Positions 9,170 to 62,059 of a DNA stretch of 64,000 nt are shown piece after piece. The notes below the pieces were generated by a model. That model did no database searches, was not told where the DNA came from, and saw only the letters and a list, made by a program, of their open reading frames with translations. A program made the position numbers and the translations under genes. This DNA comes from Pyrobaculum oguniense TE7 (GTDB lineage: Archaea > Thermoproteota > Thermoprotei > Thermoproteales > Thermoproteaceae): assembly GCA_000247545.1 (NCBI GenBank), contig CP003316.1, forward strand, positions 124,001-188,000. Direction: 5' to 3'. Every line of letters starts with the position of its first letter. The first letter of the stretch is position 1.

Positions 9170-10129
9170 ATGTTCGCCGAAATCGTGTCTGCCGTTGCCG
9201 CTTTTATAGCCGGCGTTGTTTTTGGCTTGTGGTGGGTAGGCGAGCAGAGAAGGCGCAACATCACATCACGTGATATATACAAGAACATTAGTGGAGTGCC
9301 TAGAGCCGGGGGGCTAATAGCAATGGTGGCTGCAACTGTGGGGTATAGCCTCTTGTCAACAATTACGGATAAGTCGTTGCTAGTTCTGGTGATATCGATG
9401 ATTATGGGGATCTTGGGGCTGGTTGACGACTTGAAAGGGCTTAGCGAATACGTAAGGGTGTTAGTCCCGGTGGTCTTAGCATTTGCGCTAGCCCGGACAA
9501 GTATGATAACGCTTACTGTGCCGATGGTAGGTCTTTTCTATGGGGCAACTGGTTGGCTCTCTGTCTTGGCAATTCCCGTATTGACAAATGCCTTTAACAT
9601 GCTTGACCCAGTAAACGGCTTTCTTCCCATGGCAAACACCATAGTTGGCCTCTCCCTAGCCGCGGTAGCCGCTATTAGGGGACAGTGGGACGCCGTCTAT
9701 TTGTTGGCGGTGCATGCGGCGGCTTCCCTTTCGCTGTATGTGTACAACAGATACCCCGCCAAGACCTTCAACGGTAATGTCGGTAGCTACTTCTTGGGAG
9801 CTAGCATCTCTACAATAGCAGTGCTCTACGACTTAGTCCCTTATCTGATACTAGCTGGTCTTCCCTTTGTTGTAAACGGGACGTTGATAATATTCTCCTC
9901 AGGCGGGATTAAGGGACGGGAAAAAATTGAGAGGCCTACCTATTTAGAAAACGGCCTCGTGTACCAACAATGCAACTCACCTATTATCTCCCTGGTTAGG
10001 TTAACTGTAGCCAACGGGCCTATGAACGAGTATGGAATTTTCAAGGCGCTGACGGCGCTGACAGCGGCGACCTCGGCATTAACAGTAGCAACCACAGCAG
10101 TCATACACATCTTTTCTTTACCCATATGA
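9170..10129 (+). CDS. UDP-GlcNAc:polyprenyl-phosphate GlcNAc-1-P transferase-like (MraY/DPAGT1 family)
   Basis: A 319-residue polytopic membrane enzyme with about 9-10 transmembrane segments. Family motifs in order: GVPRAGGLIA near residue 42, GILGLVDDLKGLSE (the Asp-Asp loop) near 85, NAFNMLDPVNGF near 145, and YPAKTFNGNVGSYFLG near 203, close to the N..D..NG and F.GD.GS motifs. In this family such enzymes start lipid-linked oligosaccharides for N-glycosylation (Alg7/AglH type); the exact sugar substrate is inferred. It starts two bases after the deoxyhypusine synthase stop and overlaps the next gene by four bases. Confidence 0.85.
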   Translation: MFAEIVSAVAAFIAGVVFGLWWVGEQRRRNITSRDIYKNISGVPRAGGLIAMVAATVGYSLLSTITDKSLLVLVISMIMGILGLVDDLKGLSEYVRVLVPVVLAFALARTSMITLTVPMVGLFYGATGWLSVLAIPVLTNAFNMLDPVNGFLPMANTIVGLSLAAVAAIRGQWDAVYLLAVHAAASLSLYVYNRYPAKTFNGNVGSYFLGASISTIAVLYDLVPYLILAGLPFVVNGTLIIFSSGGIKGREKIERPTYLENGLVYQQCNSPIISLVRLTVANGPMNEYGIFKALTALTAATSALTVATTAVIHIFSLPI

Positions 10130-10449
10130 AAAAGGCGTTGATCGTCGTATTGTCAGCATATGCGTTGATGCTTTTACTATTTGCGCTGGCTTCTTGGCTG
10201 TTACCTGTGTTGCGCTATAGATTGTTGTACGGGCTTACAATTGGCGATATTGTGCTCTTAGTCATTGTAGTACTTTATGGATTATTCATTTATAATATGG
10301 GAGTCCGAGTTGTGCGTGGCAGTTGCAGAGGCAGATATAGAGACGATAAGGTGCATAATGGACAACTCGAGGTGGGAGATGTGCATAAGGTTGAAAAAGG
10401 CGAGAGAGGCGTTGACAGAGCTCGAATTAAGGGTGCTACGTCTAATTGA
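10126..10449 (+). CDS. small membrane protein with a doubtful C-terminal tail
   Basis: A 107-residue reading frame. Residues 1-60 form two to three hydrophobic helices (LIVVLSAYALMLLLFALASW, IGDIVLLVIVVLYGLFI) and are convincing. The remaining 47 residues are highly charged, Gly/Arg-rich, with poorer third-position GC than the overlapping +1 frame (10277-10462). Either the protein really ends in this tail, or the true product passes into the other frame around 10300. It is coupled to the preceding transferase by a four-base ATGA overlap. Confidence 0.55.
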   Translation: MKKALIVVLSAYALMLLLFALASWLLPVLRYRLLYGLTIGDIVLLVIVVLYGLFIYNMGVRVVRGSCRGRYRDDKVHNGQLEVGDVHKVEKGERGVDRARIKGATSN

Positions 10450-10462
10450 GGCATTGCCGTGA
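10277..10462 (+). CDS. overlapping small alpha-helical protein or frameshifted C-terminus
   Basis: A 61-codon frame overlapping the small membrane protein in +1. It has better codon third-position GC than the overlapping tail, and reads as an amphipathic helix (MCIRLKKAREALTELELRVL) ending four bases into the GTPase gene (GTGA overlap). The start is uncertain: ATG at 10277, or TTG/GTG codons downstream. It may be a separate small subunit, or the real end of the membrane protein reached by frameshift. No family was recognised. Confidence 0.45.
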   Translation: MDYSFIIWESELCVAVAEADIETIRCIMDNSRWEMCIRLKKAREALTELELRVLRLIEALP

Positions 10463-10944
10463 GGCGGGTATCAGTGGCGGTCCTAGGCGTGGGGGGAGTA
10501 GGAAAGACCACGTATGTATTTAGACTTCTTGGCTTGTCTCTGAGACCAAGAACTACCCTACGCCCGGGAATTTATCGTATGTACTTAAAAGAGAAGGAAG
10601 TAGATTTTATAGATGTTCCTGGTCAGTTGGCGTCTGAAGTTGCTAAAAACTTTGCAAAGACTTGGACGTTCTACGTTGACCTAATGATCTACATGTACGA
10701 TTTGACAGATCAGTCATCCCTCTACGCGATAGCGGAGTTGCACAGCGCGTTGCTTGATAGGGGGATTAACCCATACAAAAAGGTAGTCCTAATTGGGAAT
10801 AAGCGTGATTTGGCAGAGGAGCTCGGCATATTTATAGAGGGGGACGAAATAGCTACTGCGGTTGGGGCTTCCAAGATATACTACATATCTGCCCTAAAAG
10901 ATAACTTAGATGTTTTATATCTCCCACTAGAGGAAAATATATGA
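10459..10944 (+). CDS. small Ras-like GTPase
   Basis: A 161-residue P-loop GTPase with all G motifs visible: G1 GVGGVGKTT (residues 10-18), G3 DVPGQ (about 53), G4 NKRD (about 114) and G5 SAL (about 148). It has the size and order of Ras/Arf/MglA-type GTPases and no extra domain. Gln after DVPG occupies the position of the Ras catalytic glutamine. It is GTG-initiated, overlapping the preceding frame, and overlaps the following gene by four bases. Operon partners suggest a membrane-associated role, which is inference. Confidence 0.85.
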   Translation: MRRVSVAVLGVGGVGKTTYVFRLLGLSLRPRTTLRPGIYRMYLKEKEVDFIDVPGQLASEVAKNFAKTWTFYVDLMIYMYDLTDQSSLYAIAELHSALLDRGINPYKKVVLIGNKRDLAEELGIFIEGDEIATAVGASKIYYISALKDNLDVLYLPLEENI

Positions 10945-11786
10945 TCCCTCGTGAGGATATAGTAGCAGGTATTTTATCAACACCGATTGTCACCCTCCTG
11001 TTAGAGGTGGAAGAGGTGAAGCCGTCGCCTAGATCTAGGACCTTGTTCGAGCTCCTAGCCGAGGTGGGGGCGTTTCAGCGTAAAGGCGATAAATATAGAA
11101 GAGGTCGTTCTCCGCCAGAGGTAACGGAACTTTCGCCAATATCGGACGCGGTGGCCGAAATATTCCAGCACATAGTATTCCCCTACCTAGTGTCGGGGAG
11201 AAAGGCTACGAGGCTCAGCCCGGAGCTGATAAGAGCATTGTACGTCTATACGTCTGCATACCAGATAATGAGGATAGAGGTGACTCAGGAGTTGTTGAAG
11301 TACGGCGGGCTCACATTGGTGGCGGGCTGGTTCCCATGCGGCTTCTCGTCAGAGCTCATGTCGATATCAGGACGCGACGTAGTGATTGTGGAGGAGCGCG
11401 AAGACATACTGACGATGGAAATGGATAGGTTGTCGCTGATCCCACTTGCCCCCTCGCCCACAGGCCAAGAGCTAGCCGCCGCCAGTTTCTACTCCTTCGA
11501 GACGACTAGTCTAAGCGGATTGGACGAGCTGATCAATAAATACGGTAAATTTGACACAGCCATTGTGTGTAGCAGAGGTGTAGACATGGAGAAGATAGAT
11601 AAAATCGCTGATGAGGTGTATTTCATTGCGATAAGAGACCGCCCAATAGATCTTTTCAACCAAGCCCTTATAAAAGGGCTGGGCCTCACGCCGCCTGTCA
11701 CCGATGAGAAGTTTTTGAAAAAAGCAGAGAAAAAGGAGCTAGGCCCTCTCGCTATCTACGTCATCAGGAGTGCATCCACCGCCTGA
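10941..11786 (+). CDS. protein of unknown function, possible degenerate methyltransferase fold
   Basis: A 281-residue protein coupled to the GTPase (ATGA overlap). The first 60 residues look like a winged helix (TLFELLAEVGAFQRKGDKYR). The middle has a Rossmann-like pattern (GGLTLVAGWFPCGFSSEL, then DVVIVEERED) in which the glycine-rich SAM loop is not conserved, and a later strand FDTAIVCSRGVD followed by EVYFIAIRD. This is the order found in dimeric O-methyltransferases, but SAM binding is doubtful. It may be a partner or effector of the GTPase; that is only context. The last 48 bp overlap the convergent phosphatase gene. Confidence 0.6.
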   Translation: MIPREDIVAGILSTPIVTLLLEVEEVKPSPRSRTLFELLAEVGAFQRKGDKYRRGRSPPEVTELSPISDAVAEIFQHIVFPYLVSGRKATRLSPELIRALYVYTSAYQIMRIEVTQELLKYGGLTLVAGWFPCGFSSELMSISGRDVVIVEEREDILTMEMDRLSLIPLAPSPTGQELAAASFYSFETTSLSGLDELINKYGKFDTAIVCSRGVDMEKIDKIADEVYFIAIRDRPIDLFNQALIKGLGLTPPVTDEKFLKKAEKKELGPLAIYVIRSASTA

Positions 11787-12449
11787 GAGAATTATATCTA
11801 CAGCCTCCTTGAAGCCGATCCCGCTAGGTCCTTCCACAACCATCTTCGCCGCTGATTTGGCGGCTGGCGTAGCGTTGCCGACAGCGATTCCCCAGCTAAC
11901 TTTCAACATGCCCACATCCACGTCGCTGTCGCCAACAGAGGCTATCTGAAAACAAGGCACTCCCAGCTTCTCGCAGAGCCATAACACGGCAGTACCTTTA
12001 TCAACGCCGGCAGGTCTCACATGAATCGCGTAACCGCTTGAGTCCACAACAAAGGAGGGACCTACCGCTTCTCTTATTCTCTCCACGGCATCTTCTGCCA
12101 GGGGGATATAAGCAAGGTCGTACTTCCTGCACTTGTTCTGCGGGCTTGGGCTAACAGCCCCCGTAGAGAGAACAATTTGATCCACGGCAGACATGTCAGC
12201 CGAGCACAGCTCGTAGGTCGTTCCATCTAGGTACACCAAGCAACCATTCTCAGCGACGACATCTCTAATCCCGAGATACCTAGCAATTGTCAAGGCAAAA
12301 TCTAGACCGTTAGCCGTGGCGAGAACCACTCTGAGACCCGCATCCCTGGCTTTCCGCAATGCCAGCAGAGCCTCCGTAGATAACTCGTATGTGTGCCTAC
12401 TCAGCGTTAGAGTGCCGTCTAAGTCAACCACAAGTATCCTACACCGCAC
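11739..12449 (-). CDS. archaeal-type phosphoglycolate phosphatase (HAD superfamily)
   Basis: A 236-residue HAD-IIB-type phosphatase: motif I VVDLDGTLT (residues 6-14), motif II ATANG, a Lys in the DKGTAV segment (motif III) and motif IV VGDSDVDVGML. This is the Thermoplasma TA0175-type phosphoglycolate phosphatase family, though other sugar phosphates are possible substrates. The GTG start at 12449 follows TATA (minus-strand TTTTTATAAAG, about 12464-12474). It is convergent with the previous gene and overlaps it by 48 bp. Confidence 0.85.
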   Translation of the reverse strand: MRCRILVVDLDGTLTLSRHTYELSTEALLALRKARDAGLRVVLATANGLDFALTIARYLGIRDVVAENGCLVYLDGTTYELCSADMSAVDQIVLSTGAVSPSPQNKCRKYDLAYIPLAEDAVERIREAVGPSFVVDSSGYAIHVRPAGVDKGTAVLWLCEKLGVPCFQIASVGDSDVDVGMLKVSWGIAVGNATPAAKSAAKMVVEGPSGIGFKEAVDIILSGGGCTPDDVDSERA

Positions 12450-12533
12450 GGCAGGTGTTTAGTGCCTTTATAAAAACTAGTCCGCCAAAGGGCATAGCTC
12501 CTAACTGTTTTAAACACCCCGGTGGCTGGATGT

Positions 12534-13076
12534 ATGGCAGTTGAGGTCGGCGGCATAAAGGTGAGGTTCATCACGTGGGCTGAAGGGGTAGCGCTCAGCG
12601 AGGCCCTGGCTAGGAAAGTTGAGGAGAGCGGCTACGCCCCCGACGTTGTGGTGGCCATATCGCGCGGCGGGCTGGTTCCGGCCCGTATTATCAGCGACGT
12701 GCTTGGCGTAGACGACGTGATAAGCATCGGGGTAAAGTACTGGGGCTTAGCCCACCGCCGGGCCGAGAAGCCGGTGCTCTACCACAGCATAGAGCCCGGC
12801 GTGATACGAGATAGAAAGACTCTGGTCGTAGACGAAGTCGCCGATACGGGCCACACCCTTATGCTTGCCAAAAACCTACTAGACCTCATGGGGGCTAGAG
12901 AGGTGAAAACCGCAGTCCTACACTTAAAAACCACCAGCAGATTCATCCCCGACTACTACGCAGAGAAAATAGAAGAGTGGATCTGGCTTTCATACCCGTG
13001 GAGCAGACATGAGGATTACAGAGAGTTCAAGAAAAAAGGTCACGACATCTCCATGTACATAAACAGAATCTGTTAA
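12534..13076 (+). CDS. purine-type phosphoribosyltransferase
   Basis: A 180-residue PRTase with the PRPP-binding motif TLVVDEVADTGHTL (V.D(E/D)...TG.T) and an upstream VVVAISRGGLVPARII loop, close to COG2236 (hypoxanthine/xanthine/guanine-like PRTases of archaea). It salvages a base onto PRPP; which base cannot be read from sequence. GTG at 12522 is in frame, but ATG at 12534 is preferred because GTTTTAAAC lies about 24 bp before it. It is divergent from the HAD phosphatase with separate TATA elements. Confidence 0.87.
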   Translation: MAVEVGGIKVRFITWAEGVALSEALARKVEESGYAPDVVVAISRGGLVPARIISDVLGVDDVISIGVKYWGLAHRRAEKPVLYHSIEPGVIRDRKTLVVDEVADTGHTLMLAKNLLDLMGAREVKTAVLHLKTTSRFIPDYYAEKIEEWIWLSYPWSRHEDYREFKKKGHDISMYINRIC

Positions 13077-57951: not shown

Positions 57952-60810
57952 GTGTACGCATTCGTGGACACACCGTTCTCTCCCTCAGGAGTTACTCATC
58001 TGACAAGGAGGCATAGGGCAGTTGGCTTTGAAAAAGAGTTGGAAGAACTTAAAGAGGCGTTGAAAGTGGCCAAGGAGGGCAATAACAACGTCCTAGCCGT
58101 AGTCGTGGCGCCGTATGGCTGGGGGAAAAGCGAATTATTAGACGAACTCGAGTCGCTGGCTGAGGGGGAGGGCTTTGACGTGTATAGGACAGCGCTGTCG
58201 CTTGAGGGGGAGTTCGCCATTGAGATCGCCGCCAAGAAACGGGATAAGCCAATGCTTGTCTTAATAGACGAGGCTGATGAGTTATCCCGCGCGGCGGCTG
58301 TGCACAAGCTTGGGGTACTGGGAGATGAGAAGTTTGTAAAAACTGTGCAAAAAGTCGCCACTTACATAAGGGCCCTCCTAGAGCCGAGATCTTATAAACA
58401 CCTCCTGGGTGACCCGGAGAGGTTTAACAAGATAGCCATAGTAGCGGCGCTGACCCCCCAGCTGTACTACACAATTCTGAAAAACATCGTGCCCGACGTC
58501 TTTGACCTCACCAGCGGGAGGGTCTACAAAGAGGTGGTCATAGACACGAGGTTTCCTTTTTGGCAATTTGTAGAGACGGTCAAACAGAGACTTTTGGCCT
58601 ACTCAGCAGGTGAAAGGATGAAGAAGATCGAGGCGGGGGCCCTCAACCCGTTGGACCCCTTTACTCTACAAGAACTAGCCGCAGTTTACCACTTGGCGAA
58701 GAAGAAAGGCGAGGTAGCGCCGAGGCCGCTTTTGAAGCTAATGGCGAGGCTCTTTCAGCTAAAGAAGGAGGGGCACCGCCTCGCCCACTTGCTGAGAGAG
58801 GAAGGGCTCAACCCAGATATAGACGACGAGGTTCTAGAACTAGCTTTTGCGGCAATCCCGGTAGATGTCAAAAAGCCATATTTGAAAGAGGTGTATGTCT
58901 ACAAGATACCTTATGACGACAAAGACGCGTTGAGCGCGGCGAGGGAGTACTTAATAGCCAGAGGGGCAGAGCTAGATCTCAAAGATCCTAAAAACACCTC
59001 CTTTGAGCCCTATCTGTACTACACACTGTTGGAGGGGGGAAAACTCTACGTCTACCTCGTATCTGAGGAGGAACTGGGCCTTGAGAGGTACCTAGTTGGC
59101 AAGCGTTACATAGCCGCGGAGGAAGTGGCCAAGCTGGTCGGCTGGGAAGAAGCCCAGACGATAGCTGCACTATCGCGGGAGTACGGACAGCGCCTTGAGA
59201 ACCCCAACGCTCTGCTAGAAGAGGTGGAGAAGGCGCTGGGGGTTGATGGGATTAAGCTGAGAGTCTGTTGCGGCTACGCCGTTTGGCAGAACAACATGGG
59301 CCTCCGCGAGGCGTATCTATTTCTCTACATAGACAGGGAGGAGGATCTTAGAAAAATTACAGAGGCGTTGTCTCACATAACAGCTCAAGGAGTCGTGAAC
59401 GGATATGTGGTAGACTACCTAAACATCTTCGTCGTAAGCAGGGTACTGCTCTCAGAAACTATACAACAAGCAATTTCCCCACTGATGTCAGCCTACTGGA
59501 AGCGCTTCTTCCCCAACCCAGTATCCAACTTCGCAACGCTCGAGATATACGGGGCCGATAAATACGAGAAGTTGAGACACGAGCTGATAAGACACGCAAT
59601 AGACAAGTTCCTTAAAAGAGAGGGGAAGCCCCCGAGCTTTGTCGACGCGGTGAGATTAGGCAGAGAGAAGTCGAGGGAGCAGATATTACGATATACGCTG
59701 GCCTTAAAGAGAGGTAGGGAGAAGAGATTTATAGCACTATTAAAGGCGGCCGAGGCGCTAGATGCTGGAGAGGAGGTCGAAGGCCTCGCGGCGTATCACG
59801 CAGTGGAAGAGATATTGCTGAGGACTTTTGATGACTCTATCCACGAGAAGGAGCTAAAATCAGTGGTGGCGACGCTTTTCCCCGTAAACTTGTGGAGAGA
59901 TCTGAGAGAAGACGACGTGGTGGAGTTAATGAAGTTGAGAGGCGTACTGGTGCCGATGGGCGAGAGGCTTTATAAGTATCGTGGAGACATTGTCAGAAGC
60001 TATGTAGCTGAGGTTTTGAAGCAGATAGAGGCCCTGCGGGTGGTGGAGGTAGAGGTGCGGACGCCCCTAGGCACGGTAAAGCTCGCCAAGAAAATTGACT
60101 TAGGAGAGATACACATATCGGTAGAGGATAGGAAGAGCTATGCGAAAACTCTCAGAGAGGCGCTGTTGAAGTTGCACGAAGCAAGAGAGAAGTACGAGAA
60201 AGTTAAGTCAGAGCTGGAGCGGGAGGCGGAGGAGAAGGCTAAGTTGTTAAGAAAGATCTCGGCAGTGTTGGACAAATTCCCGCAGAGGCGGAAGTTTATC
60301 GACTTAGCGAGGCTGAATGAGGAAGTGGTGAGGAGGGAGGAGCTAATAGCCCAGAAGGCGGAGGAGATTGCTAATATGTGGGCCTCCGCTAGACACATGG
60401 CAGAGGCAGTTGGGTCGGAGATAAATGTAGAGAGGGATTTATCTCTGTTGTTAGAGTTGCCGGAGCCGTGGCTTGACGAGTATGCGGCCCACCTGAGAAT
60501 ACGCATTTCTGAAATTGAGAAGAGGTACGCAGAACTGATCGAGCTAGAGAGGTCAAAAAAGGTAGCACTTGACTGGATTAGGTCAAAATTCGGCATAGAG
60601 ACAGAGGACTTAGAAAGTGCCACATCGGCAGTGGCCAGTAAACTCGGAGTTAAAAAGAGGTTGATCGAGGTCATCGCCAAAAGGGGAAAAGGCGCTGTGT
60701 TAGACGTAGACGAACTAGCCAAGGAGACGGGCCTCAACAGGGAGGAGGTGGAAAAAGAACTGGAAATACTCCACAAGGCCGGGGCGGTGGAAAAGAGGTA
60801 TGTCGCTTAG
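57952..60810 (+). CDS. large P-loop ATPase with coiled coils and C-terminal winged helix
   Basis: A 952-residue protein. N-terminal AAA/ORC-like module: Walker A APYGWGKSELLDEL (53-66), Walker B MLVLIDEADE (101-110), and a sensor-like IAIVAALTPQLYY around 165. The middle (about 260-700) is helical and unassigned. Coiled coils lie about 725-790 and 830-885 (LHEAREKYEKVKSELEREAE). The end has a winged helix (DVDELAKETGLNREEVEKEL). It is not a HerA by these motifs. It is translated with the 170-residue and NurA genes (overlap 11 bp, then abutting). GTG 57952, TATA 24 bp upstream. Confidence 0.8.
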   Translation: MYAFVDTPFSPSGVTHLTRRHRAVGFEKELEELKEALKVAKEGNNNVLAVVVAPYGWGKSELLDELESLAEGEGFDVYRTALSLEGEFAIEIAAKKRDKPMLVLIDEADELSRAAAVHKLGVLGDEKFVKTVQKVATYIRALLEPRSYKHLLGDPERFNKIAIVAALTPQLYYTILKNIVPDVFDLTSGRVYKEVVIDTRFPFWQFVETVKQRLLAYSAGERMKKIEAGALNPLDPFTLQELAAVYHLAKKKGEVAPRPLLKLMARLFQLKKEGHRLAHLLREEGLNPDIDDEVLELAFAAIPVDVKKPYLKEVYVYKIPYDDKDALSAAREYLIARGAELDLKDPKNTSFEPYLYYTLLEGGKLYVYLVSEEELGLERYLVGKRYIAAEEVAKLVGWEEAQTIAALSREYGQRLENPNALLEEVEKALGVDGIKLRVCCGYAVWQNNMGLREAYLFLYIDREEDLRKITEALSHITAQGVVNGYVVDYLNIFVVSRVLLSETIQQAISPLMSAYWKRFFPNPVSNFATLEIYGADKYEKLRHELIRHAIDKFLKREGKPPSFVDAVRLGREKSREQILRYTLALKRGREKRFIALLKAAEALDAGEEVEGLAAYHAVEEILLRTFDDSIHEKELKSVVATLFPVNLWRDLREDDVVELMKLRGVLVPMGERLYKYRGDIVRSYVAEVLKQIEALRVVEVEVRTPLGTVKLAKKIDLGEIHISVEDRKSYAKTLREALLKLHEAREKYEKVKSELEREAEEKAKLLRKISAVLDKFPQRRKFIDLARLNEEVVRREELIAQKAEEIANMWASARHMAEAVGSEINVERDLSLLLELPEPWLDEYAAHLRIRISEIEKRYAELIELERSKKVALDWIRSKFGIETEDLESATSAVASKLGVKKRLIEVIAKRGKGAVLDVDELAKETGLNREEVEKELEILHKAGAVEKRYVA

Positions 60811-61312
60811 AGTAGTCATTCTCAAAGAGGGCGAGGAGGTTCACGAAGGCGACGTCGTTATAGATGCAAGGGGGTCGCCGCAGTTCTACGACGTAATTAT
60901 CCTAAGCGGAAGAGAACTAAGGTCAATAATCGCAACGGGAGCTGTGGAGGGCGGAGTGCCAATAGGCATTGGCAAATATACGAAGAAGCCTGTGGCATCT
61001 GTAGTGGGGAGCAAGATCTACATCAAGGGCATACCACTATCTCTTTACATTGAGGCAGGCCTTTTAGAGAAGGAGTTACTTGAGGCTTTAAGAAAATCGG
61101 GACTAAACATAGACACCACATTGAGGCAACTCAAAGAAATAGTAGTAGCCGAGAGGCGGCGTTATAAAAAATCGCCCACTCTTGCAACGTTGAAAAAATA
61201 CCTAGACGGCGAGGAGAGCAGATTGCCGCCCCATCTCGAAGATTTGCTAAGCGGCGTAGATAGAGATACGTTGAAGAAGCTTTTTGAACGGCTCATAGAC
61301 GAGGTGTATTAA
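60800..61312 (+). CDS. protein of unknown function between ATPase and NurA
   Basis: A 170-residue protein. The first 90 residues are beta-rich (RVVILKEGEEVHEGDVVIDA, GVPIGIGKYTKKPVASVVGS), the rest helical (LKEIVVAERRRYKKSPTLAT). It starts 11 bp before the ATPase stop and ends next to the NurA ATG, so all three are one operon. It may be an adaptor. No family was recognised. Confidence 0.7.
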   Translation: MSLRVVILKEGEEVHEGDVVIDARGSPQFYDVIILSGRELRSIIATGAVEGGVPIGIGKYTKKPVASVVGSKIYIKGIPLSLYIEAGLLEKELLEALRKSGLNIDTTLRQLKEIVVAERRRYKKSPTLATLKKYLDGEESRLPPHLEDLLSGVDRDTLKKLFERLIDEVY

Positions 61313-62059
61313 ATGCGCCAGCTCCTATCAGAAATCCTTAGGCTTGCGGAGTTGGAGATCTCCGCGAAGAGGGCCGATATCCCAGATGAGCTTAAGAGTC
61401 TTGTGGTGTGGTGCAACGGAGATGAGCGTCCTGATTATTACGCCGTTGACTCGGGGTACGTGTTGAGGCGAATAGGCAATTCAGACGTCTTGGTACAGAT
61501 AATGGTAGCAGTAGGACGAGATATAAGGAAAAAATTCGTAGTAACAAAAGTTTCAGAAAACCCTCACCTGGTGGCTAGGATAAATGAAATAAACTTCGCA
61601 GAGTCTATAAAGTCGCAATTCGTGTTGGTTGATGGGCCACTAACTCCGTATGTCCACGACGCGGGGGTAATAGGCGTCTCGAAAGATCCGCGCCTAGTTA
61701 GATACGGACCAAGAATACGCGACGCTGAGCTTAGAGATGTTTTCGTACATCTGGTCAAGACGCTGGGGGAGAGAGATGTAGCCGCATTGCTTCTCCGCGA
61801 TGCGCCACCAGGCTCTTTCTTAGAGCCTGTGAAAATCGGCGGGCTTATGGGTACGTATTTCAAATCAGAATGGGTACTCTATGTAGAATTTCCAGAAAAT
61901 ATACCGGGGGATTTGCTATGTCCGTTGTTTAGGAAATATCCAATAAGACTTAGGACAGCCCACCACTTAGCAAGAGTAAACAGAGAATTCTTAAAAACTC
62001 TAAGAACTGTTGCATCAAGTATTTTAGGTACGCCGCCCCAGATCAGAGATCTCTTATGA
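61313..62059 (+). CDS. NurA-like nuclease
   Basis: A 248-residue NurA-domain protein: YYAVDSGYVLRR (metal Asp at about 46), SQFVLVDGPLTPYVHDAGVI (Asp about 107), GLMGTYFKSEWVL, and a C-terminal LRTAHHLARVNREF segment. NurA proteins are 5'-3' nucleases that work with HerA in end resection. HerA is not adjacent; the large ATPase two genes upstream is the likely motor partner. Start ATG directly follows the previous TAA. Confidence 0.75.
   Translation: MRQLLSEILRLAELEISAKRADIPDELKSLVVWCNGDERPDYYAVDSGYVLRRIGNSDVLVQIMVAVGRDIRKKFVVTKVSENPHLVARINEINFAESIKSQFVLVDGPLTPYVHDAGVIGVSKDPRLVRYGPRIRDAELRDVFVHLVKTLGERDVAALLLRDAPPGSFLEPVKIGGLMGTYFKSEWVLYVEFPENIPGDLLCPLFRKYPIRLRTAHHLARVNREFLKTLRTVASSILGTPPQIRDLL

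Follow-up and report, generated by a model that had tools for sequence, protein, structure and literature searches.

A NurA operon conserved across the Thermoproteales, with an Orc/Cdc6-like ATPase in place of HerA, probably an undescribed DNA-processing machine of housekeeping rather than defence

The window analysed here, a 64,000-nucleotide stretch of the archaeon Pyrobaculum oguniense TE7 (contig CP003316.1, positions 124,001 to 188,000), carries an operon of three genes encoding a large AAA+ ATPase, a 170-residue protein and a NurA-type nuclease, designated NurA4. A NurA operon with an Orc/Cdc6-like ATPase in the place of HerA probably represents an undescribed DNA-processing machine, with housekeeping favoured over defence. 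More specifically, we give a probability of roughly 0.5 to the reading that the trio forms a Thermoproteales-specific chromosomal complex, in which a DNA-bound AAA+ oligomer controls or feeds NurA4 through the 170-residue protein as an adaptor. This reading is based on the conserved operon, the conservation of active sites, single-copy inheritance across the order and the predicted AAA+ fold. All three frames are open in the window and lie on the same strand:

57952..60810, + strand: gene 1, GTG start, 952 residues; AAA+ ATPase with an Orc/Cdc6/RuvB-like core, middle domains of no assigned family, a coiled-coil hairpin and a C-terminal winged helix (open reading frame, AlphaFold2 model, Foldseek, alignment of 21 family members)
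60800..61312, + strand: gene 2, ATG start, 170 residues, family-less protein (open reading frame, alignment, AlphaFold2 model)
61313..62059, + strand: gene 3 (NurA4), ATG start, 248 residues, NurA-type nuclease (PF09376; family profile against 2ygk)
60800..60810, + strand: overlap of genes 1 and 2, 11 nt

The overlap between genes 1 and 2 is likely to couple their translation, and the TAA stop of gene 2 abuts the ATG start of gene 3 with zero spacing. This layout had been described exactly in an earlier note made from the letters of the window, and the same order of ATPase, middle gene and NurA was found in 31 other genomes belonging to three families (20 of 20 regions and 11 further loci). 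Between genes 1 and 2 the overlap or gap did not exceed 11 nt in any of 20 relatives, and the genes of the trio overlap or come close to touching throughout. Nine of the 20 regions have only zero or one other gene in common with the window and the order persists in these too, which argues that the trio itself is held together beyond chance. In other lineages of the class, 10 NurA regions were read; none contained a diverged form of the trio, and in nine of them a HerA-like gene (as judged from its HAS-type N-terminal sequence) was located beside NurA.

Across the phylum, the ATPase was detected in 39 of 398 genomes, all 39 within the Thermoproteales, with no match in more than 350 genomes outside this order (the two best candidates per genome were scored, and very diverged copies could be missed). 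Both the ATPase and NurA4 were present as one intact copy apiece in 25/25 Thermoproteales genomes with completeness of at least 90%, and a scan of public genomes placed the trio in the genera Pyrobaculum, Thermoproteus, Caldivirga, Vulcanisaeta and Thermocladium. The ATPase tree recovered genera, and also families with the exception of one weakly supported placement, and no match to the trio was found in phages or plasmids. Taken together, the trio looks to have been gained once and kept since, in the manner of a vertically inherited, ancestral housekeeping system rather than a defence cassette. In some Vulcanisaeta drafts (L078, L079, L080 and L082) the ATPase frame is broken into three to four pieces, probably as a result of sequencing errors, given that the gene order is intact.

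The universal, single-copy and vertical mode of inheritance, together with the lack of any trace in phages or plasmids, argues for housekeeping and disfavours the defence role that the earlier note had put forward among other functions. A BREX-, Wadjet- or HerA-nuclease-like system, in which the ATPase would sense or hold foreign DNA and NurA would destroy it, finds some encouragement in the fact that ATPase-nuclease pairs are common among defence systems, and in weak matches of a few ATPase homologues to BrxC_BrxD (PF10923; best 24 bits, about at cut-off). With BREX BrxC/BrxD the trio ATPase shares its nature as a large AAA+ protein and a weak similarity in the P-loop region, but the match extends over only ~70 residues (~70/414 profile positions) rather than the full length, and no defence gene, BREX genes included, was present among the neighbours checked against Pfam. 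No convincing PADLOC match was obtained, the distribution is neither patchy nor linked to mobile elements, and a viral fold search returned generic AAA+ matches only. A defence system is therefore very improbable.

Single-sequence Pfam search placed the ATPase only weakly (AAA_16, E = 8e-4, below cut-off, reflecting P-loop similarity), and PADLOC, NCBIfam and single-sequence Pfam searches of genes 1 and 2 yielded nothing decisive, with weak PADLOC matches at most. The AlphaFold2 model of the ATPase, built from an input alignment of 15 sequences, had a mean predicted local distance difference test score (pLDDT) of 84.8 and a predicted template modelling score (pTM) of 0.47, meaning that the domains are reliable and their mutual arrangement is not. 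Its top Foldseek match in the PDB was P. aerophilum Cdc6 (1fnn, E = 1.6e-5, probability 1.00), followed by RuvB and ORC subunits, so that the best fold matches are initiator, loader or RuvB-type AAA+ proteins, in agreement with the AAA/ORC-like assignment of the earlier note. TM scores of these matches were low because the alignment covers the AAA+ core alone. The Walker A and B motifs and the candidate positions for sensor 1, the arginine finger and the lid's sensor 2, as expected of an Orc/Cdc6/RuvB-like AAA+ protein, were invariant in 21/21 family members, the roles of residues beyond Walker A/B being assigned by position:

58030..58851, + strand: AAA+ core and lid, residues 27-300 (AlphaFold2 secondary structure, invariant motifs)
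58108..58134, + strand: Walker A, APYGWGKSE, residues 53-61; G56, G58 and K59 invariant
58255..58281, + strand: Walker B region, VLIDEADE, residues 102-110; D106 and E107 invariant
58453..58455, + strand: T168, candidate sensor 1, invariant; follows strand 161-167
58519..58521, + strand: R190, candidate arginine finger, invariant; precedes strand 191-196
58723..58725, + strand: R258, candidate sensor 2 in the lid; P257-R258 invariant
60130..60591, + strand: helical hairpin/coiled coil, residues 727-880, with helices 727-775, 790-820 and 841-880 (AlphaFold2)
60655..60777, + strand: C-terminal winged-helix region, residues 902-942 (AlphaFold2; weak TrmB/MarR/HTH_24 winged helix-turn-helix matches in homologues)

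The trio ATPase shares with Orc1/Cdc6 and RuvB the core fold (1fnn, 8efv) and the layout of AAA+ motifs. It differs from them in having just 10-15% identity, ~650 extra residues, a coiled coil, a winged helix at the terminus and thus distant from the lid, and an operon shared with a nuclease. In Orc1/Cdc6 initiators the winged helix directly follows the lid, whereas the recognisable one here (902-942) lies ~600 residues past it. Both the winged helix and the coiled coil proposed in the earlier note are present in the model, although "long coiled coils" was a little strong for a hairpin of ~50 residues; as whole proteins, those from other families are longer and reach up to 1245 residues. In a PDB profile search with the ATPase, most matches were coiled-coil noise. 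A weak winged-helix match to an ESCRT-III domain (2xvc, E = 0.0025) also came up, but was set aside, winged helices being common. No match to DUF87 or the HAS barrel was seen in the ATPase using Pfam.

Gene 3 matched the Pfam NurA family PF09376 with 28.8 bits against a curated cut-off of 21 (E = 1.1e-6), and the NurA model matched 20/21 members of the NurA4 family at E ≤ 0.1 (best 5e-20). In addition, the NurA4 family profile retrieved the solved S. solfataricus NurA (SsoNurA, 2ygk) with E = 1.8e-4, which bears out the earlier description of a NurA-like nuclease. Four putative catalytic positions were invariant in 21 family members, as were Y190 and Y209:

61448..61450, + strand: D46, NurA motif I Asp; the three HerA-paired paralogues have their motif-I Asp at the aligned position
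61586..61588, + strand: E92, acidic residue
61631..61633, + strand: D107, DG motif, also conserved in all three NurA paralogues encoded elsewhere in the genome
61682..61684, + strand: K124, a lysine that the three HerA-paired NurAs share

D46 is probably the counterpart of D49 in T. kodakarensis NurA, the mutation of which abolishes activity (PMC12977600). With the catalytic residues invariant, the nuclease activity of NurA4 appears to be under selection. The protein is short: it has 248 residues, whereas its HerA-paired paralogues in this genome have 337, 388 and 478, and a portion of canonical NurA is therefore missing from it; consistently, a paralogue alignment showed that NurA4 lacks segments found in the HerA-paired NurAs. 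HerA-contact residues of T. kodakarensis NurA were not mappable onto NurA4, as the sequences are too distant. At H217 (window positions 61961-61963), in the C-terminal motif, His occurs in 12/21 members and Asp in 9/21, Asp being also the residue of HerA-paired NurA2. One Caldivirga draft (G057) carries, near the start of a contig (C3:691-1294), an extra NurA4-like fragment beside an intact copy of the operon.

The protein encoded by gene 2 consists of an N-terminal beta domain (residues 1-85) and a C-terminal helical domain (AlphaFold2, pLDDT 82), with E118-R119 and Y170 invariant in the family alignment. It had no Pfam, NCBIfam or PADLOC match and no significant fold match in the PDB, in line with the earlier note, which called it unknown; weak FliN-like (E = 0.03) and glutamine-amidotransferase-like (E = 0.045) matches were not accepted. 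Its constant placement between the ATPase and nuclease genes suggests that it may act as an adaptor between their products.

According to the proposed mechanism, the Orc/Cdc6-like AAA+ protein would assemble on DNA as an oligomer, since an arginine finger, going by the AAA+ family, acts in trans. ATP would be hydrolysed using this trans arginine finger, with the winged helix and coiled coil serving as DNA- and partner-binding parts. The ATPase would then position, feed or license DNA for NurA4, to which it would be bridged by the 170-residue protein, and NurA4 would cut DNA strands, as NurA does in HerA-NurA. The physical complex, the oligomer, DNA as the substrate and the direction of coupling are what we infer here. 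Such a machine would probably serve in DNA-end processing or in repair- or replication-linked chromosome maintenance, not in defence.

Among known systems, the HerA-NurA end-resection complex (with Mre11-Rad50) is alike in its NurA with conserved D/E/D/K residues, an operon that includes an ATPase gene, and its archaeal chromosomal setting. It is unlike the trio in that its ATPase is of the HerA/FtsK type with a HAS barrel, not an Orc/Cdc6-like AAA+ protein; the trio adds a 170-residue subunit, its NurA is much shorter, and the genome keeps a genuine HerA-NurA operon as well. No HerA with HAS barrel and DUF87 is encoded beside NurA4. The statement in the earlier note that no HerA is adjacent thus holds, and it holds locally only, as four HerA-type ATPases are encoded elsewhere in the genome:

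C1:1151176-1157711: canonical NurA-HerA-Mre11-Rad50 operon
C1:1318308-1320832: second NurA-HerA pair
C1:1002517-1006454: CRISPR-linked NurA-APE2256-HerA cluster
C1:726026-727597 (L110:9027-10598), - strand: HerA4, solitary HerA with HAS barrel and DUF87

A NurA-HerA-Mre11-Rad50 operon elsewhere in the genome was one of two findings that the earlier note had set jointly against a separate ATPase-NurA machine, the other being a lack of conservation of the three-gene order. The former exists, but the order is conserved across the Thermoproteales, and the idea of a separate machine therefore survives.

Several points weigh against the complex proposed above. AAA+ proteins of the Orc/Cdc6 type act as loaders or switches more commonly than as translocases, and the solitary HerA4, which has the same phyletic range as the trio, could be the true motor. 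Moreover, the ATPase gene is not always adjacent: in the single exception, the metagenome-assembled genome Bin S10 (L066), the middle gene and NurA4 are joined (L066:4884-6171) but inverted relative to the ATPase (10001-12862) and separated from it by 3.8 kb, owing to a genuine inversion or else to faulty assembly.

HerA4 qualifies as a complete HerA, matches solved HerA chains and has no adjoining NurA in its own genome. It was found in 25/25 good Thermoproteales genomes, and in a 300-genome sample of the phylum no match beyond the order reached E ≤ 1e-40. This raises an alternative in which NurA4 works with HerA4 in trans and the AAA+ and 170-residue proteins load or regulate a HerA4-NurA4 ring, as Cdc6/ORC load MCM rings; the nearest folds of the trio ATPase indeed include ring loaders. 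However, a common order-wide range amounts to one evolutionary split and is a lead rather than strong evidence of partnership, none of the regions read had HerA4 within the trio operon, and NurA4 lacks the segments present in HerA-paired NurAs. We consider such an arrangement rather unlikely. Since an unpaired HerA4 and an unpaired NurA4 in the same genomes invite pairing in trans, replacement of HerA by the ATPase, as proposed in the earlier note, is plausible at about even odds: the deeply conserved, HerA-less ATPase-NurA operon with invariant catalytic residues upholds the separate operon, while replacement as such is not established, as NurA4 could use HerA4.

NurA has been studied so far as a cutter fed by a HerA ring. 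A tentative claim, to which we assign slightly less than an even chance, is that this NurA has an Orc-type AAA+ protein, rather than a HerA/FtsK translocase, as its dedicated ATP-driven partner. The two would then make up a second class of NurA machine, one that defines the order and belongs to core Thermoproteales chromosome biology. If true, such an operon, universal in one archaeal order and not found beyond it, would mean that a resection-type nuclease can have its motor exchanged. The trio also adds two order-wide conserved protein families with no assigned function.

The combination of ATPase, coiled coil and winged helix in one protein (AlphaFold2 model) would also fit a chromosome-organising or segregation factor with NurA4 as a minor or structural partner, for instance through coupling to the cell cycle, the division apparatus of this order being unusual. 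The Thermoproteales do possess unusual division genes (PMC10936438), and their canonical OB-fold single-stranded DNA-binding protein has been replaced by ThermoDBP (PMC8998557). Set against this, the catalytic residues of NurA4 are invariant in 21 family members, and we regard such a role as improbable. For an order already odd in these two respects, the Orc/Cdc6-NurA4 complex favoured here would be a further lineage-specific DNA system. A domesticated DNA-import system has also been described in Thermoproteales, for which HerA-NurA was proposed to make the single-stranded DNA (PMC9905601).

No description of the trio operon was found in open-access full texts; subscription papers and arCOG tables lay outside this search, and prior notice is possible. 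Three NurA-HerA pairs and the solitary HerA (Pogu_0853) are tabled for Pyrobaculum in PMC3396285 (Table A2), a table that does not include NurA4. The CRISPR-linked nurA-csm6-herA cluster of Pyrobaculum was already described in the same paper; it resembles the trio in that a NurA paralogue of these archaea is clustered with a gene for an ATPase, and differs from it in having HerA and APE2256/Csm6 genes by a CRISPR array. In the present genome (2,452,920 bases, two contigs), this cluster (L007:7518-11455) comprises NurA, two APE2256/Csm6-type proteins and HerA beside an apparent CRISPR array, with the repeat peptide FNPLFEI in frame.

The genes flanking the trio are ordinary according to Pfam, with CLP1_P polynucleotide-kinase-like, metallophosphoesterase, CbiA/ParA-like and GNAT genes on the left, and aminotransferase and NUDIX genes on the right.

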